From: Saprospiraceae bacterium
GTDB taxonomy: Bacteria > Bacteroidota > Bacteroidia > Chitinophagales > Saprospiraceae
DNA length: 64,000 nucleotides
Assembly: GCA_029263015.1 (NCBI GenBank)
Contig: JAJCYI010000198.1
Location: forward strand, 1 to 64,000
Direction of reading: 5' to 3'
Part shown: one piece after another, positions 11,394 through 58,359 of the stretch
Position numbering within the stretch: position 1 is the stretch's first letter
How the letters are laid out: every line of letters begins with the position of its first letter
Translations under genes and position numbers: made by a program
Notes under the pieces: model-generated
Seen by the model: only the letters and a program-made list of their open reading frames with translations
What the model was told of the DNA's origin: nothing
Database searches by the model: none

Positions 11394-11555
11394 TAAGTAG
11401 TCGAGATAAAATAATTTCCGAATTTTAGCGAGTTGATTTTTTCGTACAGCAAGGCAAAAAAAGTGAGCATAGCCTGGCTACGTGAACTTTTTATTAACGC
11501 AGCTATACGGAAAAGCAGCCGATAAAAACGGAAAGTATTTAGGCTCGACTACTTA
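11394..11555. repeat. ~158-bp palindromic element, copy P1
   Basis: The ends TAAGTAGTCGAG and CTCGACTACTTA are perfect inverted repeats, and imperfect complementarity continues inward. The core GCATAGCCTGGCTACGTGA begins 73 bp from the left end. Internal words GCAAGGCAA, AACGCAGC and GGAAAAG recur in copy P3. It lies between the anti-sigma stop and the rpe start. No flanking target duplication was seen. Confidence 0.75.
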
Positions 11556-11580
11556 GTTGACACTGCAAACTGCCTGCTGC

Positions 11581-12423
11581 TCAAAAATCTCCCGTCATCA
11601 AAATCCGATTTCTGCTCGGTCGGGAAACATCAGAATTGGATTCTTCTGTCAAGAAAAAAGACCTTGGATCGTCGAGGTAGGTAATGGAAGTTCTTTCACC
11701 GGGGGCATTTGTATTCAACACGCCAATTTTGCTCGACTTCCCGTTTGAGGAGACCCAAAGGACAAGTGAATTCCCTCTAATAAATTTGGGAAGGCTTTCC
11801 ACATCAATGAAAGCAGTCTTGGTGGAAGCATTCCAATAAATGGTAGCTTTTGTACCCAAGGCCCGCCTTGTTCCTTTCAACAGGATGATCTCATTTTTAC
11901 GGTCGGTGTAAAAAGCCAATTGATCTCGGATGCCCTGTTCTCCTTGTTGTTGGATTTCTTGCTGTTCTTTTAATTGGTCCATTTCATTCAGAGCAGAAAC
12001 AGTCTCTGATTTTGCCAATTCAACGTCGCCATACAAATTATACACTGCAAAACAGGCTGCCAACAAGGCAACTGCAAGTACGATTATGCCTACTAACAGT
12101 CCAGTCTTATTTTCACTTTTCGCTTGTCCTTTCGAGGCTTCTCGATTGGAGTAGGAGTTTGAACTGGTCTGTTTTTTTTGATAGGAACGAGCAGAAGGTT
12201 GTCTGCTCGTAATTTCAAGTACTTTTTCTTTAAGTCCCTCAGGGGGAGCTACTTGATGTGATAAGATGTAGTTCTTGAAGGTGTTTCGGATGGAAGCGAT
12301 TTCCTCTTTAATTTCAATATGCTGTGATGCCTTTTCCAGCACTTCTTGGACTTCCTCTTCTGAGACCATTCCCAAAACATATTTTTCCAAGATTCCAGAG
12401 GTGATGAATGCCTGTACTTTCAT
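11581..12423 (-). CDS. Anti-sigma factor, RskA-like, single-pass membrane protein
   Basis: A 280-residue protein with a cytoplasmic N-terminal anti-sigma-type region (1-75: YVLGMVSEEEVQEVLEKA), a Ser/Lys-rich linker, one membrane segment at about 107-128 (TGLLVGIIVLAVALLAACFA) and a periplasmic C-terminal domain of the anti-sigma-K type. It follows the ECF sigma gene on the same strand, the standard sigma/anti-sigma layout, and should hold that sigma factor at the membrane until an envelope signal arrives. The signal is unknown. Confidence 0.85.
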   Translation of the reverse strand: MKVQAFITSGILEKYVLGMVSEEEVQEVLEKASQHIEIKEEIASIRNTFKNYILSHQVAPPEGLKEKVLEITSRQPSARSYQKKQTSSNSYSNREASKGQAKSENKTGLLVGIIVLAVALLAACFAVYNLYGDVELAKSETVSALNEMDQLKEQQEIQQQGEQGIRDQLAFYTDRKNEIILLKGTRRALGTKATIYWNASTKTAFIDVESLPKFIRGNSLVLWVSSNGKSSKIGVLNTNAPGERTSITYLDDPRSFFLTEESNSDVSRPSRNRILMTGDF

Positions 12424-12468
12424 ATTCTGCTAACTGTGTTTGGAGTTTTGTAAAATGGAAAACTGATT

Positions 12469-12555
12469 GGTTTGGGGTTTGGGGTTTGGGGTTATTGGTT
12501 TGGAGTTCTTGGTTTTTGGTTTTTGAAGGCCACCAAGAACCAAGAACCAAGAACC
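12469..12555. repeat. Tandem-repeat hairpin (GGTTTGG / CCAAGAA words)
   Basis: A run of GGTTTGG words (12469-12494) leads into a stem whose left arm is GAGTTCTTGGTTTTTGG and whose right arm is CCAAGAACCAAGAACCAAGA. The loop is about 5 nt. It fills the gap between the sigma stop and the anti-sigma start, so it lies inside a likely operon and could modulate read-through. Confidence 0.65.
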
Positions 12556-12559
12556 GTCC

Positions 12560-13045
12560 TTAACCTATCGATTTCCTCATTGCTTTGATGGCCAGCCGCA
12601 AACGGGTTGCTACCGTGCCGACCGGAATATTCATTTCTTCTTCTATCTGATCCTCGCCAAGCCTTCGGAAAAAAGCAAGTTCAAGGACCTGCCTATGTTT
12701 ATTATCAATTTTTGAAAACAAATCTTCTAGGCTGTAACCCTTAGAATTAGAATTTTGATAGGCAAAAAAATCGAATTGATCGCTGCGGGACTCTTGCTCA
12801 AATGCTGCTTTTTTCAAAATTTCCAATACCCAGATAAATGAGTCTTTTTGTGATGGATCAAACGATGATGCAGACTGCCAAACCTGCGTAAAAGTTTCCT
12901 GCACCACTTGAGCTGCCCGATCTCTTGATTCGGTAATCCTGAGTGCGAGGCCAAAGGCCGTTGGAGCAAATGAATCGTACAATTTCGCAAATGCCTCCTT
13001 ATTTCCTTGCGAAATAGCCTTCAGTGTTTCGGAATCGTTATACAT
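12560..13045 (-). CDS. RNA polymerase ECF-type sigma factor
   Basis: A 161-residue sigma-70 family protein. Region 2 covers about 10-75 (FAKLYDSFAPTAFGLALRI, then QVVQETFTQVW). Region 4 covers about 108-158, with the helix-turn-helix EEEMNIPVGTVATRLRLA. It pairs with the anti-sigma gene just downstream on the same strand. The set resembles SigK/RskA-type envelope-stress modules. Its target promoters are not evident from the window. Confidence 0.92.
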   Translation of the reverse strand: MYNDSETLKAISQGNKEAFAKLYDSFAPTAFGLALRITESRDRAAQVVQETFTQVWQSASSFDPSQKDSFIWVLEILKKAAFEQESRSDQFDFFAYQNSNSKGYSLEDLFSKIDNKHRQVLELAFFRRLGEDQIEEEMNIPVGTVATRLRLAIKAMRKSIG

Positions 13046-13210
13046 TTGAATGAATATTGAATATTGAAAAAACGCTGGGGTAAAACTATGAAAGTAAGGT
13101 TAGAGAATAGAGTTGGCTATCATATTTTTTTATGAAATGTTTGGCCTACTTCATGATTTTCCAAAGGCTATTCATTAGGGCTTTTACAAAAAAAACAATT
13201 CCCTTAAATA

Positions 13211-13531
13211 ATGACAACCGAAAATAAATTTAACCAAATAACAGAAAAGCTGACTAACCAGAACAGCAATGTCCACCTTGGCAAAATGATGAGTTCGCCA
13301 GGACTTAAGGTAAACAATAATGTATTTGCATTCTACCACAAAGAGGCCATGTGCTTCCGACTGGGAAAGGATTTTGATGCTAAAAAATTTGGATTAATGA
13401 CCGCCCATTACCTAAGCCCGTTCAAGACAAAACCACCTTTGAAAGCTTGGTTTATTATTGAAAAAGAAGAAATTGAATTCTGGGAAGAATTGGCAGATAT
13501 GGCATTGGTCTTCACGAGAGGAGGGGGCTGA
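13211..13531 (+). CDS. Small conserved-looking protein, possibly TfoX/YjbR-like fold
   Basis: A 106-residue soluble protein, divergent from the sigma gene. The MSSPGLKVNNNVFAFY stretch (27-42), a MCFRLGKDFD strand and a final aromatic helix recall the TfoX N-terminal/YjbR alpha-beta fold, but the match is weak and by eye. There is no signal peptide or membrane segment. Codon use is normal and the frame is unshadowed, so it is probably real. Function is unknown. Confidence 0.6.
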   Translation: MTTENKFNQITEKLTNQNSNVHLGKMMSSPGLKVNNNVFAFYHKEAMCFRLGKDFDAKKFGLMTAHYLSPFKTKPPLKAWFIIEKEEIEFWEELADMALVFTRGGG

Positions 13532-13610
13532 ATGGAGAATGGAGAATTGAAAATTGAGAATTATTCCCATTCAATGTTTTGAACAAAATTCTCAATTCTC
13601 AATTCAAAAG
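13531..13610. repeat. Tandem-repeat hairpin (GAGAATTG / CAATTCTC words)
   Basis: The left arm (13531-13562) is GGAGAATTGAAAATTGAGAA; the right arm (13586-13610) is TTCTCAATTCTCAATTC. The loop is about 24 nt. It lies between two convergent genes, where a bidirectional terminator would be expected. Confidence 0.65.
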
Positions 13611-13614
13611 ATTT

Positions 13615-14628
13615 TCAATTAAACAGGTTATCGTATGAGCCTCCCCCACTACGGGATTGTTTTTCAGGCTTGGCGGCGGGTCTATTCAAGTCAAGTGAAT
13701 CCATCGATGATGATTCAGGCTCCAACAACATCAAGGTGCTCTGCTTTTCCCATTTTTCCAGCATCGCCATGCCTTCTTCCTGGAAAACCCCGTTTTGCAG
13801 GTCAATGGAATCCATCACATTGGCAGACATTTCCATGAACCTTTCCATTTCACCGACCTTATTGGCCACATCGTCAGCGATATTTTCCAAAGCTTGATCG
13901 AACATAGCCCGCTTATCGGGATCACCAGAGATGACGCTCATGGCTGATTTCATAGCATTGTGGGAAGTACGAATAATTTTGCGTTCCTGTTCTTTGAGTT
14001 TCACCTGGTCTTTGGTATCCTCTAAAAGGATTTCAGAATTTTTGTACATCTTATCCAAAATGCGATAAAGGACCTGCATTTTTTTGTTCAGCTGTGCATA
14101 GTTGGCATTTGTCTCTTTTAAACGTGCTGCCTTCCGAGTGGCCAAAATAACCTGACTTTCCTTGTTTTGGCGTTTTGCCACACTGGCCAATTTCAAGTTT
14201 TTATTAACCTCCTTTTCATTTTCCTCAATCAAGGTGGTCATCTTGCGCATCTGCCCTTTGAGAATCCCAATCTGTTTGCCCATTTTGCCCAGATTGCCTT
14301 GTAAATCCTCAACATAACTTTTCAGGATACCGATCGGGTCAATCCTTACAAACATTCCTGTGACGGAACGCATCACACTTTTGTACATATACCAGATCAG
14401 GTTGCGCATCTTTGGGTCGAGAATGACATAAATAAGCGCAGCCAAGGCCGCCAACATGGCCACTAAATATATGGTATTGGCTGCCAAAGCAATCAATGCT
14501 GGCAAAAATGTGAACAGCAAAAAACCGCCACCTGCCAGCAAAGCTATCAGGAAAATGGCGCCAGTAACGCCCTCTGGCCGCTTCCAGAAAGGTTTCTTTT
14601 CAAAACTCGGAGGTGCAATATCAGACAT
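13615..14628 (-). CDS. Two-TM membrane protein with PspA-like coiled coil
   Basis: A 337-residue protein. Two hydrophobic segments (about 21-42 and 44-68) are followed by a long charged helical region (about 95-300) with heptad character, and a Ser/Gly-rich tail. The helix resembles PspA/Vipp1 in length and in its Lys/Glu/Gln-rich composition, but PspA itself has no membrane segments. It may be a membrane-anchored scaffold or stress protein. It is monocistronic, and its neighbours give no further clue. The PspA link is an architectural analogy, not a confirmed homology. Confidence 0.6.
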   Translation of the reverse strand: MSDIAPPSFEKKPFWKRPEGVTGAIFLIALLAGGGFLLFTFLPALIALAANTIYLVAMLAALAALIYVILDPKMRNLIWYMYKSVMRSVTGMFVRIDPIGILKSYVEDLQGNLGKMGKQIGILKGQMRKMTTLIEENEKEVNKNLKLASVAKRQNKESQVILATRKAARLKETNANYAQLNKKMQVLYRILDKMYKNSEILLEDTKDQVKLKEQERKIIRTSHNAMKSAMSVISGDPDKRAMFDQALENIADDVANKVGEMERFMEMSANVMDSIDLQNGVFQEEGMAMLEKWEKQSTLMLLEPESSSMDSLDLNRPAAKPEKQSRSGGGSYDNLFN

Positions 14629-14637
14629 GATTTAGTT

Positions 14638-14745
14638 TGTTAGTGATTGGTGATTAGTTGATTAGTGATTGGTTGATTGGCGAGAAAATAAGACTCATTT
14701 CTGAATGCCTCCTAGTCACTTATTAACTAATCACTAATTAACTGA
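14638..14745. repeat. Tandem-repeat hairpin (GATTAGTGATTG word)
   Basis: The left arm (14638-14680) repeats TTAGTGATTGG/TGATTAGTTG. The right arm (14713-14745) reads ATTAACTAATCACTAATTAA, its complement. It lies directly upstream of the membrane coiled-coil gene and before palindromic element P2. Confidence 0.65.
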
Positions 14746-14803
14746 CCACAAAGTAGGGAAAATTGAATTTAGAAAACCACTATTGCTCCGAAAATTCAGA
14801 CCA

Positions 14804-14963
14804 AGGAACGATAATATAATAAGTTGGCAAGTTTGGGTAGGTTATTTAGGTTTTTATGAGTTTTAAAAAATAGAAACATAGTGGGGCTACGTGACTATTT
14901 TTTAAAACTCAGAAGAAGCAAAAAAATCAGCCAAAGTTGATAAGTTATTATTTTATCGTTCCT
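14804..14963. repeat. ~158-bp palindromic element, copy P2
   Basis: The ends AGGAACGAT and ATCGTTCCT are perfect inverted repeats; next to them, ATATAATAA pairs imperfectly with TTATTATTTT. The core ACATAGTGGGGCTACGTGA starts 73 bp from the left end, the same offset as in P1. Around the core, GAGTTTTAAAAAATAG pairs with CTATTTTTTAAAACTC. The arms differ in sequence from those of P1, P3 and P4. Confidence 0.75.
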
Positions 14964-14972
14964 CAACAAGTG

Positions 14973-15857
14973 TTATTCTCCATAAATCTCTTTTCTGCTG
15001 GCTTTCAACGTGTTGAGCATCAGAGAAGTTACGGTCATCGGCCCAACGCCGCCAGGTACAGGGGTGATGAAACTACACTTTTCTGAGACGCCCTGATAAT
15101 CTACATCCCCGACCAAGCGATACCCCCTTTTTGCAGTATCATCATCAACTCTGTTGATACCCACATCAATAACAACTGCACCTTCTTTTACCATATCCGC
15201 TTTTACAAAATTTGGAATTCCGATAGCCGCAATTATAATATCTGCCTGACGGACAACACTTGGCAAATCTTTCGTTCGGCTGTGGGTGATGGTGACGGTA
15301 CAATTGCCAATTTTGGCTTTCCTCGACAGCAAAATACTCATCGGGGTACCTACAATATTGCTGCGACCTATCACCACAGCATGCTTCCCAGAAGTTTCGA
15401 TATTGTAACGGTCAAGCATGGTCACGATTCCAAAAGGGGTTGCTGGCAAATAACAGGGCAACCCCAATGCCATCCTCCCAAAATTTACTGGATGAAACCC
15501 ATCCACGTCTTTTTTTGGATCAATGGCCAACGTTACCAGTTCTTCGTTGATGTGCTTTGGGAGCGGCAATTGGACAATAAAACCATCAATATCAGGGTCA
15601 TTGTTCAGAAAATGTACCGTTTCCAAAAGTTCTTCTTCTGTGATGTCGATGTCCTTCTGAACAAGGCTAGATTTGAAACCAACCTGTTCGCAGGAGCGAA
15701 CTTTGTTTCTAACATACACTTTACTAGCAGGGTTTTCACCCACCAAAACAGCAGCAAGATGAGGCGTTTTGCCACCAGCACTTTTTATCTTCTCTACTTC
15801 AATCGCAATTTCTGATTTGATTTTTTGAGAGAGATCTTTTCCGTCAATGATTGTCAT
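14973..15857 (-). CDS. folD: Bifunctional methylenetetrahydrofolate dehydrogenase/cyclohydrolase
   Basis: A cytoplasmic FolD of 294 residues when started at ATG 15857 (MTIIDGKDLSQ), the usual FolD N-terminus. A longer frame starts at 15926, overlapping the stop of the upstream gene, but its 23 extra basic residues are not FolD-like. The YVRNKVRSCEQVG region with catalytic Lys, the VGRSNIVGTP nucleotide-binding loop and TPVPGGVGPMT near the C-terminus are all present. FolD interconverts methylene-, methenyl- and formyl-tetrahydrofolate. It sits 65 bp after the serA-like gene, so serine-derived one-carbon flow links the two. Confidence 0.96.
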   Translation of the reverse strand: MTIIDGKDLSQKIKSEIAIEVEKIKSAGGKTPHLAAVLVGENPASKVYVRNKVRSCEQVGFKSSLVQKDIDITEEELLETVHFLNNDPDIDGFIVQLPLPKHINEELVTLAIDPKKDVDGFHPVNFGRMALGLPCYLPATPFGIVTMLDRYNIETSGKHAVVIGRSNIVGTPMSILLSRKAKIGNCTVTITHSRTKDLPSVVRQADIIIAAIGIPNFVKADMVKEGAVVIDVGINRVDDDTAKRGYRLVGDVDYQGVSEKCSFITPVPGGVGPMTVTSLMLNTLKASRKEIYGE

Positions 15858-15922
15858 GTTTAAAGTTTTGAGTACAGAATTCCTTAGTTTTGAGTTCCTT
15901 CGAGGCCTGTTTGGCCCTTTCC

Positions 15923-16870
15923 TCATTCCGCATAAAATTCAATGATCTGCTCGGCCAATTCCATTCCTATGGCAGATTGAGCCTCAGCCGTTTGGCCGCC
16001 GATATGAGCAGAAAGAGAAATTTTTGGATGGTTGAGCAGTTCTTTCCGTGGAGTAGGTTCCCCCACAAATACATCAAGGCCAGCACCCGCAAGTTTTCCG
16101 CTTTCAAGTGCTTCCAATAGTGCATCCTCCTCAATTGTACCACCGCGGGCGGAATTGATGATGACGGCCCCGTCTTTCATTTTGGTAAATTCTTCTTTGC
16201 CAAACAATGGCTTGGCGCCGCCAGGTACATGTAAAGTGATAAAATCCGATTTAGCCAAAACGTCATCCCATTTTGAAGTTTCCAAACGGACAGTCAAATT
16301 TGAGTCCTGGCTCTTAAAAACATCAATTACGGCTTCGTTGATGACCAAGTCACAAGGCATAATTTTCATGCCCATCCCAATTCCGATTTTAGCAACTTCT
16401 TGTCCGATGCGCCCAAAACCAATGATACCGAGGGTTTTACCATTCAACTGAAATCCTGATGTGGCTTTTTTGATGGATTTGAATTCGGTATCACCTTTCC
16501 CAGGCATTACCCTGTTGGACCAATGCAAGTGCCTTGCAATTGATAACATATGTCCAAAAGCCAATTCAGCAACTGCTCTTGACGACGCTTTTGGTGTGTT
16601 ATAAACCTCGACACCCTTAGACCTTGCATATTTGACATCGATATTGTCGAGGCCAACTCCTCCCCGTGCAATGATTTTCAGGTTTGGGCAAGCATCAATC
16701 AATTCCTGGCGCACCTTCGTTGCACTACGGACGCAAATCGCCTCATAATCTTTCAGCGCATTAACAAGGTCTTCTTGGGCAATTTTCTCTGTATCAACCT
16801 GAAAACCAGCTTCTTCGAGTAGTAATTGGCCATCAGGATGGATACCGTCGTTAGCGAGAATCTTTATCAT
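15923..16870 (-). CDS. Phosphoglycerate/2-hydroxyacid dehydrogenase, short form
   Basis: A 315-residue D-isomer-specific 2-hydroxyacid dehydrogenase. The NAD-binding GFGRIGQ loop follows the IIARGGVGLDNID motif. INSARGG and the catalytic His in SAHIGGQT near residue 292 are present. It lacks the C-terminal ACT domain of long SerA, so serine feedback through that domain is not expected. It lies directly before folD, which fits a role in serine/one-carbon metabolism. Glyoxylate or hydroxypyruvate reductase activity cannot be excluded. Confidence 0.85.
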   Translation of the reverse strand: MIKILANDGIHPDGQLLLEEAGFQVDTEKIAQEDLVNALKDYEAICVRSATKVRQELIDACPNLKIIARGGVGLDNIDVKYARSKGVEVYNTPKASSRAVAELAFGHMLSIARHLHWSNRVMPGKGDTEFKSIKKATSGFQLNGKTLGIIGFGRIGQEVAKIGIGMGMKIMPCDLVINEAVIDVFKSQDSNLTVRLETSKWDDVLAKSDFITLHVPGGAKPLFGKEEFTKMKDGAVIINSARGGTIEEDALLEALESGKLAGAGLDVFVGEPTPRKELLNHPKISLSAHIGGQTAEAQSAIGMELAEQIIEFYAE

Positions 16871-16994
16871 GTTTATCTATTTATGATTTTGAGAAATTTA
16901 AGTCGTTTGGGATTTTTGAAGGAGCGAAAGTAAAGCAATTTTTCAAAATACATCATTTAGAAACTCCGCAACAAAATGCTGTCCAACAAAAATA

Positions 16995-17083
16995 CCTGAA
17001 CCACAAAAGGCACAAAAGGGATCATAAGGAACACTTCACTAAGTATCACTTTTGTACCTCTTTTATGCCTTATGTGGTTCAGG
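16995..17083. repeat. Hairpin with repeated CACAAAAGG-type words
   Basis: The left arm begins CCTGAACCACAAAAGGCACA and the right arm ends GCCTTATGTGGTTCAGG; they pair imperfectly over about 33 bp around a 20-nt loop. It lies in the 411-bp space between the serA-like start and the GH26 stop, which otherwise holds only the inserted element at 17166. Confidence 0.6.
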
Positions 17084-17165
17084 AGAATCGAATCTTCACC
17101 TAATTTTAGTCAAACAAGTTTTAAGGGAAAATCCTACCAACCGATAAAACCCTTTCCGTTTATTC

Positions 17166-17279
17166 GGGTGTATTTCAAAATGTCAGTAAGAAGGTAGGCC
17201 GGATTTCCCAATCCGGCTGATAAACAGGGCGGGTTGGGAAATCCAGCCTACGTTTCCACCGACATTTTGAGATACACCC
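17166..17279. mobile_element. Palindromic MITE-like element, copy 1, with 8-bp target duplication
   Basis: A 114-bp element with inverted ends GGGTGTATTTCAAAATGTC and GACATTTTGAGATACACCC, and an inner palindrome around GCCGGATTTCCCAATCCGGC. It is flanked by a perfect direct repeat GTTTATTC (17158-17165 and 17280-17287). The right copy covers the stop codon of the GH26 gene, so the element landed exactly at that gene's 3' end without changing the protein. It is too short to encode a transposase. Confidence 0.85.
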
Positions 17280-17281
17280 GT

Positions 17282-18436: not shown

Positions 18437-18446
18437 GATTGCCTAT

Positions 18447-18474: not shown

Positions 18475-18503
18475 ATTTAAGACATTTTATTTTTCAAATT
18501 ATA

Positions 18504-21984: not shown

Positions 21985-22048
21985 TCCTCCAAGGGGTTTC
22001 AACCCTTTGTTTTTATACAACCACAAAGGGTTGAAACCCCTTGGAGGA
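21985..22048. repeat. Perfect 25-bp inverted repeat
   Basis: The arms begin TCCTCCAAGGGGTTTCAACC (21985-22009) and end GGTTGAAACCCCTTGGAGGA (22024-22048), and are perfectly complementary, with a 14-nt loop. It lies between the S37 peptidase stop and the TPR gene start, both on the minus strand. It could end peptidase transcripts, but there is no U-tract. The rest of 21812-22189 shows no feature. Confidence 0.8.
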
Positions 22049-31088: not shown

Positions 31089-31161
31089 GCGCAGGACTGT
31101 GTCGCTGGCGCAGGACTGTGTCCTGTGCTGAACATGTCACAGGACACAGTCCTGCGCCAGC
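31089..31161. repeat. 24-bp perfect inverted repeat with adjacent direct copy
   Basis: The stem arms lie at 31104-31127 and 31138-31161 (left starts GCTGGCGCAGGACTGTGTCC), perfectly complementary, with a 10-nt loop. The word GCGCAGGACTGTGTC also occurs directly before the left arm (31089-31103). It lies between the flippase stop and the methyltransferase start. Confidence 0.75.
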
Positions 31162-35698: not shown

Positions 35699-35757
35699 TA
35701 GGATCGTTTAAAAAATAACTTAGACAATAGAACGAAGTGATTTTTTAAACGATCCTA
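35699..35757 (-). terminator. Long hairpin directly after the 35762 gene
   Basis: The ends TAGGATCGTTTAAAAAAT and ATTTTTTAAACGATCCTA are inverted repeats, and the 59-bp palindrome begins 4 bp after the stop codon of the T9SS-protein gene. The A/T-rich stem makes a bidirectional terminator or an mRNA-end stabiliser likely. It may also be a short relative of the ~158-bp palindromic elements. Confidence 0.6.
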
Positions 35758-50302: not shown

Positions 50303-52696
50303 ATGAAAGAAGAATACAAGAACAGCCCAGTCAAAATGAGTATCAATTACTTTATGCAAACCAAAAACTGGTGGGCGCCTTTGACATTCATCCTCATCAT
50401 TAGTTTGGCAGGAGTGGGAATGATCGGTTATCAAACCTATAACGATGCCCCCCCCATGACGGGTTTTCAAACAAATTCGGGCGAAGATTTGATAACCAAA
50501 ACAACTATTGAAGATGGGCAGGAGGTTTTCCACAAGTATGCATTAATGGAATACGGCTCCTATTTTGGGGATGGTGCTCAAAGAGGGCCTGATTATACCG
50601 CCGAGGCTTTGCACCAGGTGGTGCTTTTAATGACCGAATACCGTGTAAATGAATTTAAGGAAGAAAATGGACGGGAGCTTTCAGATATGGAATTAAAAGT
50701 CATTGGCGAAAATATAAAGGAGGAAATTAAGGAAAACAGATATGACGAGAAAGAGAACATCGTCATACTATCGGAGGCACAGGCCTATGCATTAAGAGGG
50801 TTGAGAAAATATTATACCGACGTTTTTATCGATGCCAATACGGAAGATGCATTTCCCCCGCCAGGTTATATTTCAGACAGGCAAGAGATTGCAGACTTGA
50901 GCGATTTTTTCTTTTGGGGTGCATGGGTCTGTGGCGTATTGCGGCCTGGATCTGATTTCAGTTACACACACAATTGGCCATATGATCCTGCTGCTGGCAA
51001 CAATCCAACGTCACCTGTTATATTATGGAGTGTCCTCGGTCTGCTGGCATTTGTCCTGGCATGTGGCATTGTGCTTTATTTTATCGGACAGTATAATCAA
51101 CTGCCCAATAAATTTTTCAAGCAGGGCACCTCCGGCTTTTTGACTTTCAAACAGATAAATAATTATTCTCCGACAAAAACCCAACGGGCAGCTTTCAAAT
51201 TCTTTTTTGTGGCCATTATCCTTTTCCTGATCCAGGTATTAAGTGGCGTAGTCACCTTGAATGAGTTTATTGATTTCTTGGGCATTGTCGGAATAAACAT
51301 ATCAGCGGCAGTTCCTATTACAATCACCCGGAGCTACCACTTGATGCTTGCGCTTTATTGGATTACAGCATGTTGGATCGCTTCATCCATTTTCATTCTC
51401 CCAATCCTATCAAAAAAGGATGTGAAAGGGCAGTTGGGCTTAATCAACCTGTTGTTTGTACTTATTTTCATTTTGGTAGGCGGGTCCTTAGTTGGAATGT
51501 TCATGGGCCCAAAAGGCTTATTGGGAGACTGGTGGTATTGGCTCGGACATCAAGGCTGGGAATATGTTGACTTTGGAAAATTATTCCAGGGATTGTTAAT
51601 GGTTATTTTTGTCCTCTGGGGCATCATCGTTTACAGAGGGGTAAAACCAGCCTTTGTCAAAGGGCAACCCTGGAACCTGCCAAACTGGATTTTTTATTCG
51701 GTCATCGGCATCCCCCTTCTTTTCCTTTCTGGTTTTGTGGCAGGCCCAAAAACCAATTTTGTGATTGCAGACTTTTGGAGATGGATGGTCATTCACATGT
51801 GGGTGGAGGCCTTCTTCGAAGTTTTTATTACCGTAATCGTCAGTTATTTAATGGTGTTAATGGGATTGGTCAGCCGCCAAGCAGCCATCAGGGTAGTCTA
51901 TATTGCAGTTCTGTTATTTCTCGGAACGGGACTTCTAGGCATATCACATAATTTCTACTGGAATGCAAAACCGGTCGCAACCATGGCTTTGGGATCTGTA
52001 TTTTCCACTCTCCAGTTTGTGCCTCTGATTTTGTTGACAGTGGAAGCCTGGAGGTTTAAAAGTATGCCGCGGTTGTCGCTAAATGGAGGGAATGGAAATG
52101 GAGGAACAAAAAAGAACTTATCAGACTTCGCCTTTCCAGAAGTCTTTTTATTCCTCATTGCCGTGAATTTCTGGAACTTCTTTGGAGCAGGTGTGATGGG
52201 GATCATCGTGAACCTTCCTATCATGAATTTTTTTGAGCACGGCACCTATCTTACAGTCAACCACGCCCACGCAGCATTAATGGGCGTTTATGGCAATATT
52301 TCCCTTGCAGCCATGCTTTTCGCTTCCAAGCTTTTGTTCAAACCAGTCCGGTGGAATAGAAATGTAGTCAGGTTCTCATTTTGGTCCATAAATGCTGGTT
52401 TGATGCTCATGGTAATTTTGGATTTATTCCCGGCAGGAGCCATTCAGTTCAAAGCAGTCTTAGATCATGGGTTATGGTTTGCACGTTCAAATGATTTCAT
52501 CACTGGTTCTGCATTTGAAACCCTTACATGGCTACGAGGCATAGGCGCCAGTTTATTCATTTTTGGAGGCGTTGTTCCTTTGACCTGGTTTATTGTTTCC
52601 CGGGTCAATTCCCTGAAAAAAGGAATTGAAACATATGTGGATTTTGACAGAGAAGAACCAGCGGTATTGGAAGAGCAGGAATCTAGTACTGTATAG
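50303..52696 (+). CDS. norZ: Quinol-dependent nitric oxide reductase (qNOR)
   Basis: A 797-residue polytopic enzyme of the haem-copper oxidase superfamily that reduces two NO to N2O with quinol electrons. The N-terminal extension (GQEVFHKYALMEYGS, GPDYTAEALH) is the NorC-like periplasmic domain without a CxxCH, so no haem c. The haem/iron ligands are visible: His in RSYHLMLALYW, His and Glu in HMWVEAFFE, and two His in NHAHAALMG. About 14 membrane segments. No NirK or NirS lies in the window, so NO may come from elsewhere or from outside. Cells could use it for detoxification or respiration. Confidence 0.95.
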   Translation: MKEEYKNSPVKMSINYFMQTKNWWAPLTFILIISLAGVGMIGYQTYNDAPPMTGFQTNSGEDLITKTTIEDGQEVFHKYALMEYGSYFGDGAQRGPDYTAEALHQVVLLMTEYRVNEFKEENGRELSDMELKVIGENIKEEIKENRYDEKENIVILSEAQAYALRGLRKYYTDVFIDANTEDAFPPPGYISDRQEIADLSDFFFWGAWVCGVLRPGSDFSYTHNWPYDPAAGNNPTSPVILWSVLGLLAFVLACGIVLYFIGQYNQLPNKFFKQGTSGFLTFKQINNYSPTKTQRAAFKFFFVAIILFLIQVLSGVVTLNEFIDFLGIVGINISAAVPITITRSYHLMLALYWITACWIASSIFILPILSKKDVKGQLGLINLLFVLIFILVGGSLVGMFMGPKGLLGDWWYWLGHQGWEYVDFGKLFQGLLMVIFVLWGIIVYRGVKPAFVKGQPWNLPNWIFYSVIGIPLLFLSGFVAGPKTNFVIADFWRWMVIHMWVEAFFEVFITVIVSYLMVLMGLVSRQAAIRVVYIAVLLFLGTGLLGISHNFYWNAKPVATMALGSVFSTLQFVPLILLTVEAWRFKSMPRLSLNGGNGNGGTKKNLSDFAFPEVFLFLIAVNFWNFFGAGVMGIIVNLPIMNFFEHGTYLTVNHAHAALMGVYGNISLAAMLFASKLLFKPVRWNRNVVRFSFWSINAGLMLMVILDLFPAGAIQFKAVLDHGLWFARSNDFITGSAFETLTWLRGIGASLFIFGGVVPLTWFIVSRVNSLKKGIETYVDFDREEPAVLEEQESSTV

Positions 52697-52778
52697 TTTT
52701 TTATAAGAATGCCTTCGTTACTTAATAACATTTAAGGATGATAAAATAATAACCTGTCAAGGTTGGGTAAGTCATTTA

Positions 52779-52937
52779 GAGCATGTCTAGTTTTTATTTG
52801 AACTGAGTCCGCCAATAGGGCGGATAGGATGATGGCATAGAATTAATGAGAAAACTTATCGGGATAAATAACCGAGTTAATTCGAAGTCAACGCCTAAAG
52901 CGTTGGTTGTCAGGAAAAAAAAAAACTAGACATGCTC
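52779..52937. mobile_element. 159-bp MITE-like element with 17-bp inverted ends
   Basis: The ends GAGCATGTCTAGTTTTT and AAAAACTAGACATGCTC are perfect inverted repeats, flanked on both sides by TTA (52776-52778 and 52938-52940). Inside are two small stems, TCCGCC/GGGCGGA and AACGC/GCGTT. There is no coding capacity. The 3-bp TNA-type duplication recalls the IS5/IS1031 group, by inference only. It lies between norZ and the di-haem peroxidase-like gene and may separate their transcription. Confidence 0.72.
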
Positions 52938-52967
52938 TTAGTTATCGTCTCTAAACAATAAGATCTC

Positions 52968-54455
52968 ATGAAGAAAAAAATATTGCTTGTTGGATCAATT
53001 ATACTTTTAGTCGGCGTTGTAGGGTTTCAAATAATTGATAAAAACCTACATATGCTGCAAAGCCCTGGGGCAGTTGTTCCCAACTATGAGGAAAGTGATT
53101 ATGGACTAAGAAGTAACTATGTGGATAATCTCAAAAAGTTTCCCAGTTTAAATTTAGGGGAAAGGACACCTTTCGATTTATATAGATATGGTGGAAGGGA
53201 CAAAACATCTTATATGTCACTGGATTTAGGCATGAGTTGGAAGGAATGGGTGGTTTATCATGAAAAACAAAAGCCTGAATTGATGGCAGATGTTAAGGAA
53301 TATATGAACAGTCGATATGACTTTTCTAATAATCCGATAGAAGGGGTGTATATGTCCGGCAACAGGAAGCAAGTCATGAAGGGTCCCATTTCAAGATTGC
53401 CTGAAGGGGTAAATTCTTTTGAAGATTTAGCACAGCGCTCTGCCGAAGACATCAAAGCAAAGGATTTGTTCCCTTACAAGCCACTTGCACATCCCTTGCA
53501 TTCCACCGCACATATGGTTTTTCCGGAGGAATATTTAGAGTACCACCCTGAACATAGAAGAATAGATGTTGACCATGATATACCGGATAATTACTTGCCG
53601 GAATTTCCACCTCCTATGTTCCTGACAACACATAAAGAATATGGGGATATAACCAAGGGGAAAGAAGTCACGCTCGGCAACTATTTTGAAATATTTAATG
53701 GATTACTTACTCCCGAACAAATGGAAGGACTCAAGGAGTTATTAAAACCGACACCCAGTACTTTCTTTAATCACACTACGTTTCGGGTTACTATCCAACC
53801 AAGTGCAGGTGTTGCTTGCTTTTCCTGCCACGCAAACGGGCATACAAATGGAGCATTTGAGGTTGCTCCTGATACGCGTCCTCAGCTGGCACGATTGAGA
53901 GTAGGTACTCCTTCTATGCGAGGAAATTATAATCTAATGCAGCTTGCATCCAAACGTTCTATCAGGAGTATGGACCATTTTGCGGAAGTAGAAGAATATT
54001 TCGAAGGGGATCCTGGTATTCAGCAAGCCATTGGGCCTCGGTCCCAGCGAAGGGCAGTCACCAATAGGATGGGGGACTTTAATGCAATTTTGGATTTTCC
54101 GCCTGCACCTAAACTTGGGCCTCTTTATAAGCTTATTCCCAGTAAGGCCACAGAACAAGAGCTTTTGGGGGAAAAGGTTTTTAATGGGAAAGGACAATGC
54201 ATAACCTGTCACAGCGGACCAGCATTCGTTGATGATTACATGCACGATCTACAAGTAGAAAGATTTTACACAGGAAGGCCCGAAGGTCCCATAAAAACAT
54301 TTCCATTAAGGGGGATAAAGGATTCCCCACCATATCTCCATGATGGAAGGTGCATGACTTTAAATGATACAGTTGAGTTTTTTAATTTGATATTAGAACT
54401 GAAACTTTCAAAAGAAGAGAAAGATGCCTTGGTGGCTTATTTAATTTGTTTATAA
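52968..54455 (+). CDS. Di-haem cytochrome c peroxidase-like protein
   Basis: A 495-residue protein with an N-terminal membrane anchor or signal (about 4-24). Two haem c sites are CFSCH (284-288) and CITCH (411-415). The order and the PLRGIKDSPPYLHDGR region (about 446-461) match the MauG/bacterial cytochrome c peroxidase superfamily. The long N-terminal part (25-280) is unusual for plain peroxidases (about 330 residues) and has no recognised domain. Probably a periplasmic peroxidase or oxidase that takes electrons from a respiratory cytochrome. It is AT-rich like the ferredoxin gene after it. Confidence 0.83.
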   Translation: MKKKILLVGSIILLVGVVGFQIIDKNLHMLQSPGAVVPNYEESDYGLRSNYVDNLKKFPSLNLGERTPFDLYRYGGRDKTSYMSLDLGMSWKEWVVYHEKQKPELMADVKEYMNSRYDFSNNPIEGVYMSGNRKQVMKGPISRLPEGVNSFEDLAQRSAEDIKAKDLFPYKPLAHPLHSTAHMVFPEEYLEYHPEHRRIDVDHDIPDNYLPEFPPPMFLTTHKEYGDITKGKEVTLGNYFEIFNGLLTPEQMEGLKELLKPTPSTFFNHTTFRVTIQPSAGVACFSCHANGHTNGAFEVAPDTRPQLARLRVGTPSMRGNYNLMQLASKRSIRSMDHFAEVEEYFEGDPGIQQAIGPRSQRRAVTNRMGDFNAILDFPPAPKLGPLYKLIPSKATEQELLGEKVFNGKGQCITCHSGPAFVDDYMHDLQVERFYTGRPEGPIKTFPLRGIKDSPPYLHDGRCMTLNDTVEFFNLILELKLSKEEKDALVAYLICL

Positions 54456-54558
54456 AAAATCTTGGGTAATGCCTTTGACATTACGACCTATATTACACTA
54501 CGGCCTACATTAATTAATGCGAACCAGAGGTTAAATCTTTTTGACTATTGAAAATCAG

Positions 54559-54671
54559 GGGTGCATTTCAAAATGTCGGTAAGAAGGTAGGCCGGATTTC
54601 CCAATCCGGCTGTAAACAGGGCGGATTGGGAAATCCGCGCTACGTTTCCACCGACATTTTGAAATACACCC
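54559..54671. mobile_element. Palindromic MITE-like element, copy 2, with 8-bp target duplication
   Basis: A 113-bp copy of the element at 17166, with ends GGGTGCATTTCAAAATGTC and GACATTTTGAAATACACCC and the same inner GCCGGATTTCCCAATCCGGC. It is flanked by a perfect direct repeat AAAATCAG (54551-54558 and 54672-54679). The target is different from copy 1, which shows independent insertions. Confidence 0.88.
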
Positions 54672-54739
54672 AAAATCAGGAGCTTTTAACCAATGCAAGT
54701 TTCAGAATCTTGGAATGGCTGCACCTAAAATAAAACGAA

Positions 54740-55801
54740 ATGGTTAATTACAGTTTAAAATCAGGAGATCAATTATCATCACGATCAATTCTAATCTGGC
54801 GGATAGTTCAAACTTTGGTTTGGCTAGTTGGGGTTTTGATTCTCTTCAATCTGATATTTAACCCAACGATTGGCATCCACTTATTTTGGAACATATTGAT
54901 TCCTGTTGCTCCGGCACTTCTGGTCGTTGCGGTAGGTGTGTGGAGAAATGTTTGTCCCTTGGCATCAACTGTGTTGTTCCCTAGGCATCTAGGTCTTTCA
55001 AAAAGGAAAAAGTTAACCTTTGCACAAATAGGTAAATTGAACCTGGTTGCCGTAATTGCATTATTCGCAGTTGTGCCATTACGACATGCTATATTTGATA
55101 TGAATGGACCGGCTACAGCTTTATTGATAATGTCTCTGACGATAATTGCAGTTATTGTAGGATCACGTTATGAATGGAAAAGTGCATGGTGTTCAGGTCT
55201 TTGTCCAGTTCATGCGGTGGAAAAATTATATGGACTGAAGAATAAATTATCCTTACCAAATGCCCATTGCGATAAATGTTACCGTTGTGTAACTCCCTGT
55301 CCTGATACAACTCCAGCTATCAATCCTCTTTCTTCAAAAAAAACGACTTATCATAAAATAGCAGGAACTCTTATGGTAGGAGCATTCCCAGGTTTTATCT
55401 GGGGATGGTTTCAGGTACCCGATTATCCCGGAATAACAGGCATTGAGCAGCTTATTCTCATTTACAAAATGCCCATGATAGGCCTTTTTGTTACGAGCAT
55501 TTTATTCTTGGTATTGAAGAAAATTTTTCAAGAAAAAATATTAATTGCCATTTTTTCTGCCGCAGCGGTTTCCTGTTATTATTGGTTCAGGTTACCAGCT
55601 TTGTTCGGTTTTGGTGTTTTTCCGGGTGACGGAATGCTTATTGATTTATCGGCAACATTTCCGGAATGGTTAATAACAGTTACTGTTTTTGCGACCACCC
55701 TTTTCTTTTTTTGGTGGATCGTTTTCAGTAAGCAACATAAAATGAGCTGGGTGGTCAGACCTGATTATGCTGATAAAGAAGTTGAATTGATGGGGGTATG
55801 A
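54740..55801 (+). CDS. Membrane ferredoxin-type protein (NapH/NosR-like)
   Basis: A 353-residue membrane protein with about 7-8 segments. Two membrane-edge Cys-Pro motifs, VCPL (Cys72) and CSGLCPVHAVE (Cys151 and Cys155), are typical of the NapH/NosR/CcoG group. One [4Fe-4S] site is CDKCYRCVTPCP (Cys177, 180, 183, 187). Family members pass electrons from quinol to periplasmic reductases or maturation factors. Next to a di-haem peroxidase-like protein it may feed that enzyme. It begins 68 bp after the MITE copy at 54559. Confidence 0.82.
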   Translation: MVNYSLKSGDQLSSRSILIWRIVQTLVWLVGVLILFNLIFNPTIGIHLFWNILIPVAPALLVVAVGVWRNVCPLASTVLFPRHLGLSKRKKLTFAQIGKLNLVAVIALFAVVPLRHAIFDMNGPATALLIMSLTIIAVIVGSRYEWKSAWCSGLCPVHAVEKLYGLKNKLSLPNAHCDKCYRCVTPCPDTTPAINPLSSKKTTYHKIAGTLMVGAFPGFIWGWFQVPDYPGITGIEQLILIYKMPMIGLFVTSILFLVLKKIFQEKILIAIFSAAAVSCYYWFRLPALFGFGVFPGDGMLIDLSATFPEWLITVTVFATTLFFFWWIVFSKQHKMSWVVRPDYADKEVELMGV

Positions 55802-55816
55802 ATCAACTTAGTAAGT

Positions 55817-55971
55817 AACGGTCAAAAAATAAGTTGACGATTTCAGGTGAGCAATTTTTTGATCAGGCAAGGCAACAAAATGCTTGTATGGCGGGGCTAT
55901 TGGATCGTTTTGCCAACGCCGCAAGAGCGGAAAAGGGCCGGTTGAAATCGGTAAATTATTCTTTGACCATT
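55817..55971. repeat. ~158-bp palindromic element, copy P3
   Basis: The ends AACGGTC and GACCATT, then AAATAA/TTATTCTTT and CGATTTCA/TGAAATCG, pair inward. The core GTATGGCGGGGCTATTGGA starts 69 bp from the left end. GCAAGGCAACAAAA and GGAAAAGGGCCG align with P1. It follows the ferredoxin stop by 16 bp. The remainder of 55972-56272 has no recognised feature. Confidence 0.72.
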
Positions 55972-56272
55972 TCTAAATCATGCACAATTGTGCAGTGGAA
56001 ATGCCTAACAGAAAATATGCTGTACTGCATATTTCAAGGTGTCAAACATCATTGTCATTCATTTCGGTCTTCCTTCCTTTGTAAGGAAAATCGCGTTGTG
56101 CATTTTATTTGGCTCTAGTTCAATAAATCCACTCGCCAATAATTTATCCTATAATAATAGGTTTGTTTAAGCCTGAAAAACAGCCCCTAGTGTTTGATTT
56201 ATTCCTCCTCATCAAATGGAAGTTCAAATCATTTGCAAGGGTATCTTTTTTTAACATAAAAATTATTTCCCG

Positions 56273-58195
56273 ATGAAAAAAATCTTACAATTGAGTCTAA
56301 AAGCCCTTTTAGTTTCAGGGCTCTTCACCTTCAGCCTGAGTGTCACAGGACAGGAAAACCGCTCCTACGATGGTAGCGGAAACAACACTGTTCACCCCGA
56401 ATGGGGTGCAGTTGGCACCAACCAATTACAGGTAGCCACAAACGGGTTTGCCGATGGCATTTCAGAACCAACTGGTGCTGACCGCCCTAATCCACGATTC
56501 ATTAGCAATGCCGTGTTCAACCAGGACGGCCTCCTGCCCGACGCTCTTGAACTCTCCGACTACGCTTGGGTATGGGGACAATTCATTGACCATAATATCA
56601 CGCTTGTGGTGGATGACCCAAACGAACCTGTAGATATTGCCGTACCTAGTGGCGACCCTTGGTTCGATCCCGCTGGCACCGGCACAGTAATAATTGGTAT
56701 GCACAGGTCTGCTTATGACCCTGCTTCCGGAACCGACCCGTCGAATCCACGAGCATTTCCCAATGGAATTACTTCTTTCGTAGATGCTTCAGGAGTTTAC
56801 GGTTCCAGTGAGGAACGTGCAAATTGGTTGCGGACATTCACAGATGGAAAGTTGAAAATGTCATCGGGCAATCTGCTGCCTTACAATACCACTACCGGGG
56901 AATTGAACGACCCTTTGGATCCCAACGCCCCCGGAATGGCAATGCCATTTCCTTTTATCACAAAATGGTTTGTAGCTGGAGATGTCCGGGCAAATGAAAA
57001 CCCCCTCTTGACTTCTTTCCATACCCTTTTCGCCAGGGAACACAATCGGCTGTGCGACGGACTGGCGGCCGAAAACCCCAGCTGGGCGGATGAAGAACTC
57101 TACCAACACGCCCGGAAAATCGTTGGCGGATTAATGCAGTCTATTGCTTACGAAGAATGGCTGCCCACAATGGGTGTCCATCTCGACCCTTACACCGGTT
57201 ACGACCCTAGTGTTGAAACGGGTATTATGAATATCTTTTCTGCTTCTGCTTACAGGTATGGCCATACGGTCATCAACAGCAGCATCGTCAGGATGAACAA
57301 TAATGGGGACATCATTCCACAGGGAAATATTTTGTTGCGTGATGCCTTTTTCAACCCACCTGTACTTGTAGATGGTGGCGGACTTGACCCCTTGCTGATA
57401 GGGATGGCGACTCAGATGGAGCAGGATTTTGATTTGAAAATGGTGCATGACTTGCGAAACTTCTTATTTGGCCCTCCGGGTGCTGGTGGTTTGGACCTTG
57501 CTGCCCTGAACATTAACCGGGGTCGGGAAAGAGGCTTGCCAGATTACAACACTGCCCGGGTTGATTTCGGATTGCCGGCCGTAGAAAGTTTTGCTACGCT
57601 TACCAATAACCCCTGGCTGAACCAGATCCTGGAAGGCGTTTATGGCGACATCAATAACATGGACTCCTGGGTGGGTTTTCTCGGCGAAAACCACATGTCC
57701 GATGCGCTTTTCGGTGAATCGGTTATGACCATCATGGAAGTCCAGTTTACAAACCTCCGGGACGGTGACCGCTTTTATTATGAAAGCGACTCGGGACTTT
57801 CAGCTGAAGAAATAACGGAGATCAAGGATACCCGATTTATAGAGGTCATTTTAAGAAATAGTGGTGTCGCAGAACTTCAGGAAAATGTATTTCTTACCAG
57901 GAAGCATATCACTACCCCAGTGGCCTATTTAGAAGCGTCGCCTATTGAATTGGTAGTATATCCAAACCCAAGTTCTGGTAATTTTTTCATGAATGTAGCT
58001 GCACCACGTTCAGGTAAGGGAACCCTTCAAGTAACGGATTTGATGGGTCATCTCATTGAGTACAACATGTTGAACGTAGCAGAAGGCATGAACACTTTTG
58101 AATTTAACCTGGATGAAGGGCTGCCTGTGGGATTATACAATGTAACCTTGACGTTGGATAACCAAGTTGGCCACCAGAGGGTTTTGAAAAAATAA
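56273..58195 (+). CDS. Secreted animal-type haem peroxidase with T9SS sorting domain
   Basis: A 640-residue protein with a signal peptide (to about residue 27). The peroxidase domain (about 40-545) has Asp106 and distal His107 in WGQFIDHN, the ASGVYGSS region, Arg255-Glu256 in REHNRLC and proximal His331 in YRYGHTVI. NRGRERGLPDYN is a signature of the peroxinectin/myeloperoxidase superfamily. The C-terminal ~80 residues are a T9SS type A domain (VVYPNPSSGNFFM). It is exported to the cell surface or outside and oxidises halides, phenols or similar with H2O2. It is far more GC-rich than the two genes before it. Confidence 0.93.
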   Translation: MKKILQLSLKALLVSGLFTFSLSVTGQENRSYDGSGNNTVHPEWGAVGTNQLQVATNGFADGISEPTGADRPNPRFISNAVFNQDGLLPDALELSDYAWVWGQFIDHNITLVVDDPNEPVDIAVPSGDPWFDPAGTGTVIIGMHRSAYDPASGTDPSNPRAFPNGITSFVDASGVYGSSEERANWLRTFTDGKLKMSSGNLLPYNTTTGELNDPLDPNAPGMAMPFPFITKWFVAGDVRANENPLLTSFHTLFAREHNRLCDGLAAENPSWADEELYQHARKIVGGLMQSIAYEEWLPTMGVHLDPYTGYDPSVETGIMNIFSASAYRYGHTVINSSIVRMNNNGDIIPQGNILLRDAFFNPPVLVDGGGLDPLLIGMATQMEQDFDLKMVHDLRNFLFGPPGAGGLDLAALNINRGRERGLPDYNTARVDFGLPAVESFATLTNNPWLNQILEGVYGDINNMDSWVGFLGENHMSDALFGESVMTIMEVQFTNLRDGDRFYYESDSGLSAEEITEIKDTRFIEVILRNSGVAELQENVFLTRKHITTPVAYLEASPIELVVYPNPSSGNFFMNVAAPRSGKGTLQVTDLMGHLIEYNMLNVAEGMNTFEFNLDEGLPVGLYNVTLTLDNQVGHQRVLKK

Positions 58196-58201
58196 GATAA
58201 G

Positions 58202-58359
58202 GGAGTTGGAAATAAATAACCTACCCGTTATGGCGAAGCTATTTTTTCTTGTAAAGGTGTTTGAAAAATTAAGCATAGCTGGGTTACGGTTCATTTTTAA
58301 AGCATCTTTAGAAGGAAAAAGAGCGAGTCAGAATGGGTAGGTTATTTGTTTCCAACTTC
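58202..58359. repeat. ~158-bp palindromic element, copy P4
   Basis: The ends GGAGTTGGAAATAAATAACC and GGTTATTTGTTTCCAACTTC pair with two mismatches, and ACCTACCC pairs with GGGTAGGT. The core GCATAGCTGGGTTACGG starts 71 bp from the left end. GGAAAAAGAGCG aligns with GGAAAAG in P1. It lies between the animal-type peroxidase stop and a peroxidase remnant. Confidence 0.75.

Follow-up and report, generated by a model that had tools for sequence, protein, structure and literature searches.

A family of palindromic miniature transposable elements in a Saprospiraceae genome with a conserved hairpin fold that follows one strand

Four palindromic elements with a related core and divergent arms lie within a 64,000-nucleotide stretch of a Saprospiraceae genome (the window), raising the question of what they are and in which molecule, if any, their fold is selected. 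All four were found where the original prediction had placed them, with ends shifted by a few bases, and all lie on the plus strand. E1 (GTAG subfamily, AGTAGTCGAG...CTCGACTACT, 11396-11553, or 11394-11555 with flanks; core GCATAGCCTGGCTACG at 11467-11482; 149.5 bits against the covariance model described below) lies 25 bp past the stop codon of a minus-strand ORF (11581-12423) and between two TA dinucleotides (11394-11395 and 11554-11555). E2 (GGAAC subfamily, GGAACGATAA...CGTTCC, 14805-14962, or 14802-14965 with flanks; core ACATAGTGGGGCTACG at 14876-14891; 108.6 bits) lies 7 bp past the stop codon of a minus-strand ORF (14973-15926), with imperfectly matching flanks, CAA on the left and TCA on the right. 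E3 (GTAAC subfamily, GTAACGGTCAAAAAATAAG..., 55815-55973, or 55812-55976 with flanks; 106.9 bits) lies 10 bp 3' of the stop codon of an ORF at 54740-55801 and between two TAA trinucleotides (55812-55814 and 55974-55976). E4 (GGGAG subfamily, GGGAGTTGGAAATAAATAACCTACCC..., 58201-58360, or 58198-58363 with flanks; core GCATAGCTGGGTTACG at 58273-58288; 128.2 bits) begins 2 bp past the stop codon of an ORF at 56273-58195, also between TAA trinucleotides (58198-58200 and 58361-58363). Covariance-model matches, flanking bases included, span 11394-11555, 14802-14965, 55812-55976 and 58199-58362, and the predicted RNA fold of each element is better than that of 200/200 shuffles (z = -7.3, -9.6, -3.4 and -13.5 for E1 to E4). 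Other parts of the first description needed correction: of the words said to be shared by all four, GCAAGGC occurs only in E1 and E3 and GGAAAA only in E1, E3 and E4, and calling the outer arms nearly perfect was too strong, as ungapped DNA complementarity is 81% in E1, 77% in E2 and 86% in E4, and a list of the window's 25 longest inverted repeats does not include E3. The shared core pattern, itself near-palindromic, is weak inside the window alone (six matches at ≤3 mismatches; shuffle mean 1.67, with 2/100 shuffles reaching six) but strong genome-wide (93 matches at ≤2 mismatches versus 14 for a reversed control).

With a covariance model trained on 17 copies from the same genome, E1 to E4 among them, at least 150 matches were found in the 6.95-Mb genome, the best reaching 160 bits; 150 is a floor, since all 150 scored candidates, of 4,388 first-pass candidates, matched. 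The search for further copies suggested originally succeeded, and it did so in relatives too: with scoring limited to 48 per genome, 28 of 59 other genomes carry matches (29/60 with the source genome), and genome G010 has at least 48; matches also occur in five genomes from a different family of the class. Matches are 161-166 bp long, or 182-183 bp with a 20-bp insert, and have complementary ends; seven other copies among the matches listed share 93-98% identity with the whole of E1. If near-identical copies interrupt assembly, copies at contig ends are expected, and at least 44 of the 150 matches lie within 60 bp of one (24 more are on contigs of unspecified length). The family accounts for no fewer than 44 sequences at the contig ends of this assembly. 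Chance palindromes were rejected by the shuffled folds, the genome-wide core count and the bit scores of E1 to E4 and of the other copies. In agreement with the claim that no named family has this layout, no Rfam family matched the window at the gathering threshold, and the three matches obtained on the four loci up to E = 1, all far under threshold, were to two microRNA hairpin models and one frameshift site, none of them a bacterial family. A search of viral contigs with one pattern gave no matches, and in one open-access library we did not find the hairpin family described. The covariance model is ready for use on related genomes.

Conserved structure with changing sequence had been read as selection on a fold, and comparison of the copies supports this. 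Changes on both sides were found in 42 of 66 pairs, and the covariation score was 0.430 versus 0.169 when shuffled and ≤0.103 when slid. The proposed check for compensatory changes was likewise positive, as, against a phylogenetic null obtained by simulation, ten column pairs reach significance at E < 0.05, 10/10 of them on the hairpin axis. The whole element, ends included, keeps its predicted base pairing along one fixed strand. The core, AAGGC / GCATAGC-NNN-GCTACG / AACG, is kept across families; the ends differ completely. An alternative interpretation is that these are ordinary palindromic MITEs without any RNA role, in which the ends fit one transposase, template switching between arms (quasipalindrome correction) keeps the palindrome and compensatory changes are a by-product. 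Ends that covary as with changing transposases would fit this, as would core-less elements in G010, G002 and G255 whose ends are of this type, but we consider it unlikely because correction between arms would erase internal mismatches and G-U pairs, yet both are conserved in the elements, because the inner arms covary too (two-sided changes in 24/32 pairs of helix 2 and 6/9 of helix 3) and because G-U pairs exceed A-C pairs on one fixed strand, as detailed below.

The elements nevertheless bear the marks of DNA transposition, and the original statement that no target duplication was seen was wrong, while the contrast drawn with ordinary MITEs is not supported: E3 and E4 have equal 3-bp flanks, E1 equal 2-bp flanks and E2 an imperfect pair. 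Flanks and stop codons were counted for 72 of 88 full-length matches, leaving out 15 lower-scoring copies and L089 at a contig start; ends are misplaced in L110, L115, L116 and probably two more of the 72, which were kept in, and 20 copies at contig ends were inspected but stand outside the duplication counts. The left and right 3-mers are equal in 27/29 copies of the GGGAG group (TAA/TAA in 22, TTA/TTA in five; shuffle mean 17.7, with 0/10,000 shuffles reaching 27), and a target duplication is present in 6/10 copies of the GGA group. The GTA group has TAA..TTA in 26/30 copies, which we take as a TA duplication outside AGTAG..CTACT, a reading supported by the nested insertion L058, where the host core GCTACG is split as GCTA/AGTAG...CTACT/AACG, one substitution from TA/TA. 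In fetched stretches of the distant genome G255, flanks are equal at 33/52 places versus 20.3 when shuffled. A TAA stop codon served as target for 12/72 copies, compared with 3.8% of the available TWA sites in the window. Indirect signs of movement are that nested insertion and the spacing of the genes bordering E2, which is 126 bp in G008 versus 343 bp in the window; base-level empty sites were not obtained from relatives, the best relative match being only 74% identical over genes. Core-less elements with similar ends also occur (about 60 bp in G010, two-hairpin types in G002), and those of 39-40 bp in G255 have equal flanking 3-mers in 9/19 cases; since core-less elements carry duplications, the core seems dispensable for movement. 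Judged by their terminal inverted repeats, their target duplications of 3 or 2 bp and their many dispersed, near-identical copies, and with an insertion sequence that has matching ends, the elements are non-autonomous DNA transposons (MITEs).

That insertion sequence, at G000:C7 in the same genome, is 1,298 bp long and bounded by GGGAGCAGGTAAAAAATAACCTACCC... between two TTA trinucleotides, the left of which is simply the start of the contig (bases 1-3). It was the sole long pair of such ends with 19/19 identity and equal 3-mers among the loci then examined, and its protein matches PF07592 (4.6e-60) and NCBIfam ISAzo13 (8.7e-56; 189.6 bits, under the 200-bit cut-off). Over ~26-30 bp at either end it matches the GGGAG subfamily, E4 included, which suggests that it or a relative probably moves GGGAG-ended copies; like that subfamily, it has GGGAGCAGGTAAAAAATAACCTACCC ends, with TTA on both sides, but unlike the hairpin elements, ISAzo13 insertion sequences carry a transposase gene. 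Two ISAzo13 elements of G001 have the same style of end (GTAATGGTTAAAAAATAAC in one resembling the ends of E3) and TAA/TAA flanks, the right TAA of one falling in the final 4 bases of its contig. Not all ISAzo13 elements have equal flanks, given TAA/ATA in G002 and TTA/TAA in G016. The likeness of ends is strong in the GGGAG subfamily and suggestive in the GTAAC subfamily, with no match found for the remaining subfamilies; no insertion sequence with GTAG ends was found among the transposase loci examined in the source genome. When searched with the covariance model, four ISAzo13 loci (L233, L234, L238 and L241) showed no hairpin core. As to the suggested transposase gene that would track the copies, all seven PF07592-positive genomes among 60 carry the family (versus 29/60 overall), but 22 of the 29 element-bearing genomes, including copy-rich G010, have no PF07592 match, nor do 4/4 further element-bearing genomes searched with this profile (G220, G255, G161 and G283), for which a missing match is no proof that the gene is absent. 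Among the near-exact ends listed for G255 no pair had the spacing of an insertion sequence, and what looked like an 894-bp pair turned out to be an ordinary element beside an unrelated half. IS630, to which IS630-Spn1, the presumed partner of the pneumococcal element RUP, belongs, was rejected as a partner (DDE_3 matches in 4/14 genomes of the genus and none in G010); a sub-threshold match of that search was the ISAzo13 locus. None of the 20 Y1_Tnp and DDE_Tnp_1 loci examined in the source genome had such ends; at two DDE_Tnp_1 loci (L204 and L208) an element copy lies nearby, not at their ends.

The original prediction had left the choice between a DNA cruciform and a structured RNA, and here the two strands are informative. 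The set used for this comparison came from 200 matches over 96 sources, 150 of them aligned, from which the better strand at each place gave 101 elements (full-length copies L096, L099 and L100 lie outside the sources of this set). On the fixed strand of the 101 elements, G-U pairs outnumber A-C pairs by 438 to 117 (177 to 51 in 40 representatives at <80% identity), and the sense strand folds more stably in 99/101 elements and 38/40 representatives. We caution that the G-U excess depends on the pairs chosen, since the pair set of the antisense fold gives 55 G-U versus 61 A-C and pairs supported on both strands 66 versus 38. In other genomes (representatives >170 nt dropped from the wide alignment, L291 and L292 left out), sense was more stable in 16/16 copies from G161, G255, G283 and G111; in G220 the bias is absent (sense lower for 2/7 copies). 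The consensus of 14 intact G255 copies, drawn from 32 loci of which 21 had any match, folds to -48.1 in sense versus -17.4 on the other strand. Private mutations show a weak trend in the same direction (27 G-U-making versus 14 A-C-making, P = 0.06, in clusters of ≥4 covering 61/101 elements; 4 versus 2 in the G255 set). A cruciform, or a protein-binding palindrome selected as double-stranded DNA, would suit long inverted repeats that could extrude around a near-palindromic core, but with both strands in use G-T should equal A-C; the one-strand excess, though smaller with other pair sets, and the G255 consensus make this reading highly improbable. A single-stranded fold is favoured instead, and the selected molecule is probably a single-stranded hairpin, most likely RNA, although DNA folding parameters give the same strand bias, so single-stranded DNA is also compatible.

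Host read-through was considered as the cause of this bias. In the source genome, copies ≤60 bp from a stop codon are 26 sense versus 15 antisense (P = 0.12), those using a stop codon as target 11 versus 1, and those in tandem with a gene 22 versus 11 (P = 0.08), but among 20 copies of other genomes, in most of which the sense fold is much the better one, the counts are 6 versus 6 within 100 bp of a stop codon and 5 versus 8 in tandem, which weakens read-through as sole cause. That the bias follows the element's own strand and not the direction of the neighbouring gene would suit a sense single strand, DNA or RNA, acting as a mobility intermediate that would have to fold in order to move, as IS200/IS605 or REP elements do. 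We regard this as improbable, however, because equal 3-bp flanks are the signature of a staggered cut, not expected of HUH single-strand transposition, and because core-less 40-bp elements still have duplications; an HUH/REP (RAYT) system was rejected because none of the eight Y1_Tnp loci in the genome is flanked by these ends.

The reading we prefer, with a probability of roughly 0.7, is an old family of palindromic MITEs, active until recently, mobilised in trans by ISAzo13-type transposases and carrying a selected sense-strand RNA hairpin. ISAzo13-type transposases, or others in other lineages, would cut and paste the elements through their ends, and transcription from neighbouring genes or a promoter would yield the hairpin on which selection acts. 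Through the hairpin an insertion probably becomes harmless enough to be tolerated or even useful to the host, one example being a stable 3'-UTR structure next to stop codons; the core would be a putative recognition site for a protein or RNase, and G-U pairs may preserve the RNA fold while reducing the cruciform tendency of the DNA palindrome. More tentatively, the core and pairing arms might be the heritable unit of a selfish structured RNA, retained in no fewer than two families of one class because of a task at the RNA level, its ends swapped or re-evolved for whichever TWA-targeting transposase is available; if true, such a hairpin RNA gene would switch transposase partners. Bacterial MITEs are commonly seen as passive derivatives of insertion sequences. 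Here the fold of a MITE family is specific to one strand and has been maintained, through extensive compensatory change, in different genera and more distant lineages, its ends and arms nearly free to vary, and whether selection on transcripts, besides transposase binding, decides which miniature elements survive is now a testable question.

Among known systems, Correia/NEMIS elements of Neisseria are described as ~107-155 bp long, with terminal inverted repeats, TA ends, a target duplication and long stem-loop transcripts cleaved by RNase III in mRNA (PMC2229807, PMC10969869). By that description they share with the present family their size, terminal inverted repeats, terminal TA, target duplication and long stem-loop (predicted here), but differ in host, whereas in the present family the probable partner is ISAzo13-like, the duplications are of TWA, lineages with unrelated ends have a core in common and covariation was measured on one strand. 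RUP of Streptococcus pneumoniae, presented as a 107-bp intergenic MITE with ends thought to be served by an insertion sequence in trans (PMC2229807), is likewise short and putatively dependent on a partner, but its partner family is different and the sequence of its copies is said to be highly conserved, unlike the arms here, which diverge with pairing kept. The enterobacterial YPAL/RU-2 (168 bp) and ERIC/RU-1 (127 bp) are also mobile repeats of similar size with long stem-loops, suspected of affecting the stability of upstream transcripts (PMC2229807, PMC10969869); unlike the hairpin family, YPAL is described with duplications of 3 to 26 bp and ends without TA.

The four hairpin elements of the window (11394-11555, 14802-14965, 55812-55976 and 58198-58363) are members of a real, large and mobile family. 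Each folds better than 200 of 200 shuffles, and a covariance model (R1), built from an alignment of 17 copies from the same genome with these four included, recovered all four in the window and at least 150 matches in the genome as a whole (150 of 150 scored candidates matched; 4,388 first-look candidates). The elements have a related core around GCATAGC-NNN-GCTACG, and the proposed model search of the genome and its relatives did reveal more copies: R1 matches occur in 28 of 59 other relatives and, in a phylum-wide sample of 295 other genomes, in 7, of which two are from the same family and five from one other family (f24) of the same class, with three of those five (G161, G255 and G283) being single-contig genomes. 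An exact-pattern scan of named genomes added five stretches from three MAGs whose labels are Saprospiraceae, Chitinophagales and Bacteroidetes. In the window's genome, a contig end is no more than 60 bp away from at least 44 of the 150 matches, and 24 further matches are on contigs of unknown length; 20 contig-end sequences sort into near-identical subfamilies, as expected when an assembler meets recent copies.

Movement of the family is well supported by its ends and flanks. Ends are fixed across the 72 of 88 full-length copies of the window's genome that were aligned, and the earlier impression that target duplications are absent was mistaken. In the GGGAG subfamily (subfamilies are named by element ends), 27 of 29 copies carry identical left and right flanking triplets, either TAA/TAA or TTA/TTA; since the flank match differs among copies of one element, this is a true duplication. 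Flanks are equal in 6 of 10 copies of the GGA group, one being CAA/CAA, and in distant genome G255 at 33 of 52 places in fetched stretches, against 20.3 expected by shuffling. The GTA group has TAA..TTA in 26 of 30 copies, for which a duplicated TA outside AGTAG..CTACT is the best reading. Locus L058 supports it: there an AGTAG element is nested in the core of a GGGAG element and interrupts GCTACG, leaving TA at one junction and, one substitution away, TA at the other. All four copies in the window are found 2-25 bp past a stop codon, and the target is the TAA stop codon itself in 12 of the 72 copies; TAA stops make up 3.8% of the TAA/TTA sites open to insertion, a background taken from one window only with a simple ORF caller.

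When the fetched loci were scored with a weight matrix built from the element ends, a single long pair had both identical ends and equal flanks: L233, 1,298 bp on contig C7 of the window's genome, reading TTA, GGGAGCAGGTAAAAAATAA..., TTA, where the left TTA is the contig start and the duplication is fully seen on one side only. Pfam places its protein among the ISAzo13-family transposases, and the protein scores 189.6 bits against the NCBIfam ISAzo13 model, under the 200-bit cut-off; its first 26 bases show 4 differences, counted by eye, from the outer element of L058. Two ISAzo13 elements in G001, one well inside its contig, have like ends (G, a variable stretch, AAAATAA) and TAA/TAA flanks, and those in G002 and G016 have like ends and unequal flanks. 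R1 detected no hairpin core in the four ISAzo13 insertion-sequence loci searched. The transposase model PF07592 matched in 7 of 60 genomes, and the hairpin family occurs in all seven compared with 29 of the 60 overall, an overlap with a random-draw probability of about 0.004 when relatedness is ignored and the two of the seven that have fragments only are counted. PF07592 had no match in 22 element-bearing genomes, nor in 4 further ones tested, which counts against a single partner. None of the ISAzo13 papers listed in the open-access literature searched, PMC9208149 among them, is listed for such miniature elements.

Selection on the fold, for which compensatory changes had been proposed as the test, is supported. 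Of the cells in the 17-copy alignment, 87.7% pair, compared with 72.0% when shuffled. Both sides have changed in 42 of 66 pairs, and a shift of the partner by one to three columns takes the covariation score down from 0.430 to at most 0.103; further pair types were not beyond shuffles (88/500). A wider test drew 64 sequences from the window's genome and others and used a null in which the tree and the number of changes per column are preserved; it found 7 of 26 consensus pairs significant (E < 0.05), and the other three significant pairs likewise lie on the hairpin axis. On the GCATAGC..GCTACG (sense) strand, mismatches are G-U rather than A-C by 438 to 117 in 101 elements and by 177 to 51 in 40 representatives, compared with 55 to 61 for antisense-derived pairs and 66 to 38 for both-strand pairs, so that the count depends on the choice of pairs; private changes show a weak trend in the direction of the G-U excess. 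The sense strand is the more stable in 99 of 101 elements (mean -70.3 versus -55.5 kcal/mol), DNA folding parameters give a bias in the same direction, and in farther genomes it folds better in 19 of 24 copies (16 of 16 in G161, G255, G283 and G111 together, 1 of 1 in G019 and only 2 of 7 in G220). Covariation and strand bias support, at the level of sequence, a putative RNA-level role for the fold. Long DNA palindromes are badly tolerated by bacteria; G-U pairs may preserve the hairpin in RNA yet make the palindrome in DNA weaker, and could be favoured for that reason.

What stays conserved over the wide set is the apical GCATAGC-NNN-GCTACGG, together with an internal loop in which AGGC faces AACG and a stretch rich in A, while the ends vary (GGGAG, AGTAG, GGAAC, TACCAATT, GAGTCTG and others). 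Because core-less elements with like ends exist, both of about 60 bp and of a two-hairpin type, the core seems dispensable in cis for movement; its conservation would then require another cause, the simplest being a task of the RNA. Core-less palindromes of 39-40 bp occur at 19 places in fetched stretches of G255 (for example, L299, L300, L312 and L313), with equal flanks of TWA type (TAA or TTA) in 9; most of those listed have one common junction. They hold little beyond two ends and are unusually small as transposase substrates.

The hairpin family works like Correia/NEMIS, ERIC and RUP, and shows the MITE features that are open to testing. Bacterial MITEs are described as about 100-200 bp with transcripts forming long stem-loops, and Correia/NEMIS, ERIC and RUP have TA ends (PMC2229807); Correia-containing mRNA is cut by RNase III, and ERIC has effects at 3' ends (PMC10969869). 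Neither covariation on one strand nor a core that persists while the ends change was found described in the open-access literature searched, and both features are apparently undescribed.

The window holds other palindromes. One of about 160 bp at 52779-52937, with ends GAGCATGTCTAG and TTA flanks (52776-52778 and 52938-52940), shares the target class of the hairpin family, differs inside, where it has several small hairpins, and gave no R1 match at E ≤ 0.001. A 55-bp hairpin at 35701-35755 (GGATCGTTTAAAAAATAACTT...), with TTA before and TAG after, has ends resembling the ISAzo13 style and is probably a minimal element. Two similar hairpins of about 115 bp (17165-17280 and 54559-54671) end in CGGGTGTATTTCAAAATGTC; their CCGGATTTCC motif also flanks a weak Y1-transposase locus (L195) as an inverted repeat, which suggests a separate REP-like family. 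There are also two perfect 24-26-bp inverted repeats (21985-22048 and 31104-31161), and a 15-bp part of the former recurs as an inverted repeat in L204. Several subfamilies contain within their arms, at differing positions, a 20-bp hairpin, CCTGCCTGCCGGCAGGCAGG or a close variant (L129-L142, L015, L029, L208 and L213), which in one of them was amplified together with the element. At L222 (contig C219 of the window's genome, about 51300-51520), one hairpin element is split by another MITE with ends ACTGGACTTTTGACG, a close match of which forms an inverted repeat in L208; the DDE_Tnp_1 gene of L208 is a possible partner of that MITE. In G002, GTAACGGTTAAAAAATAAG-ended elements (L214-L217) carry strong tandem hairpins in place of the core, some with TAA on both sides.
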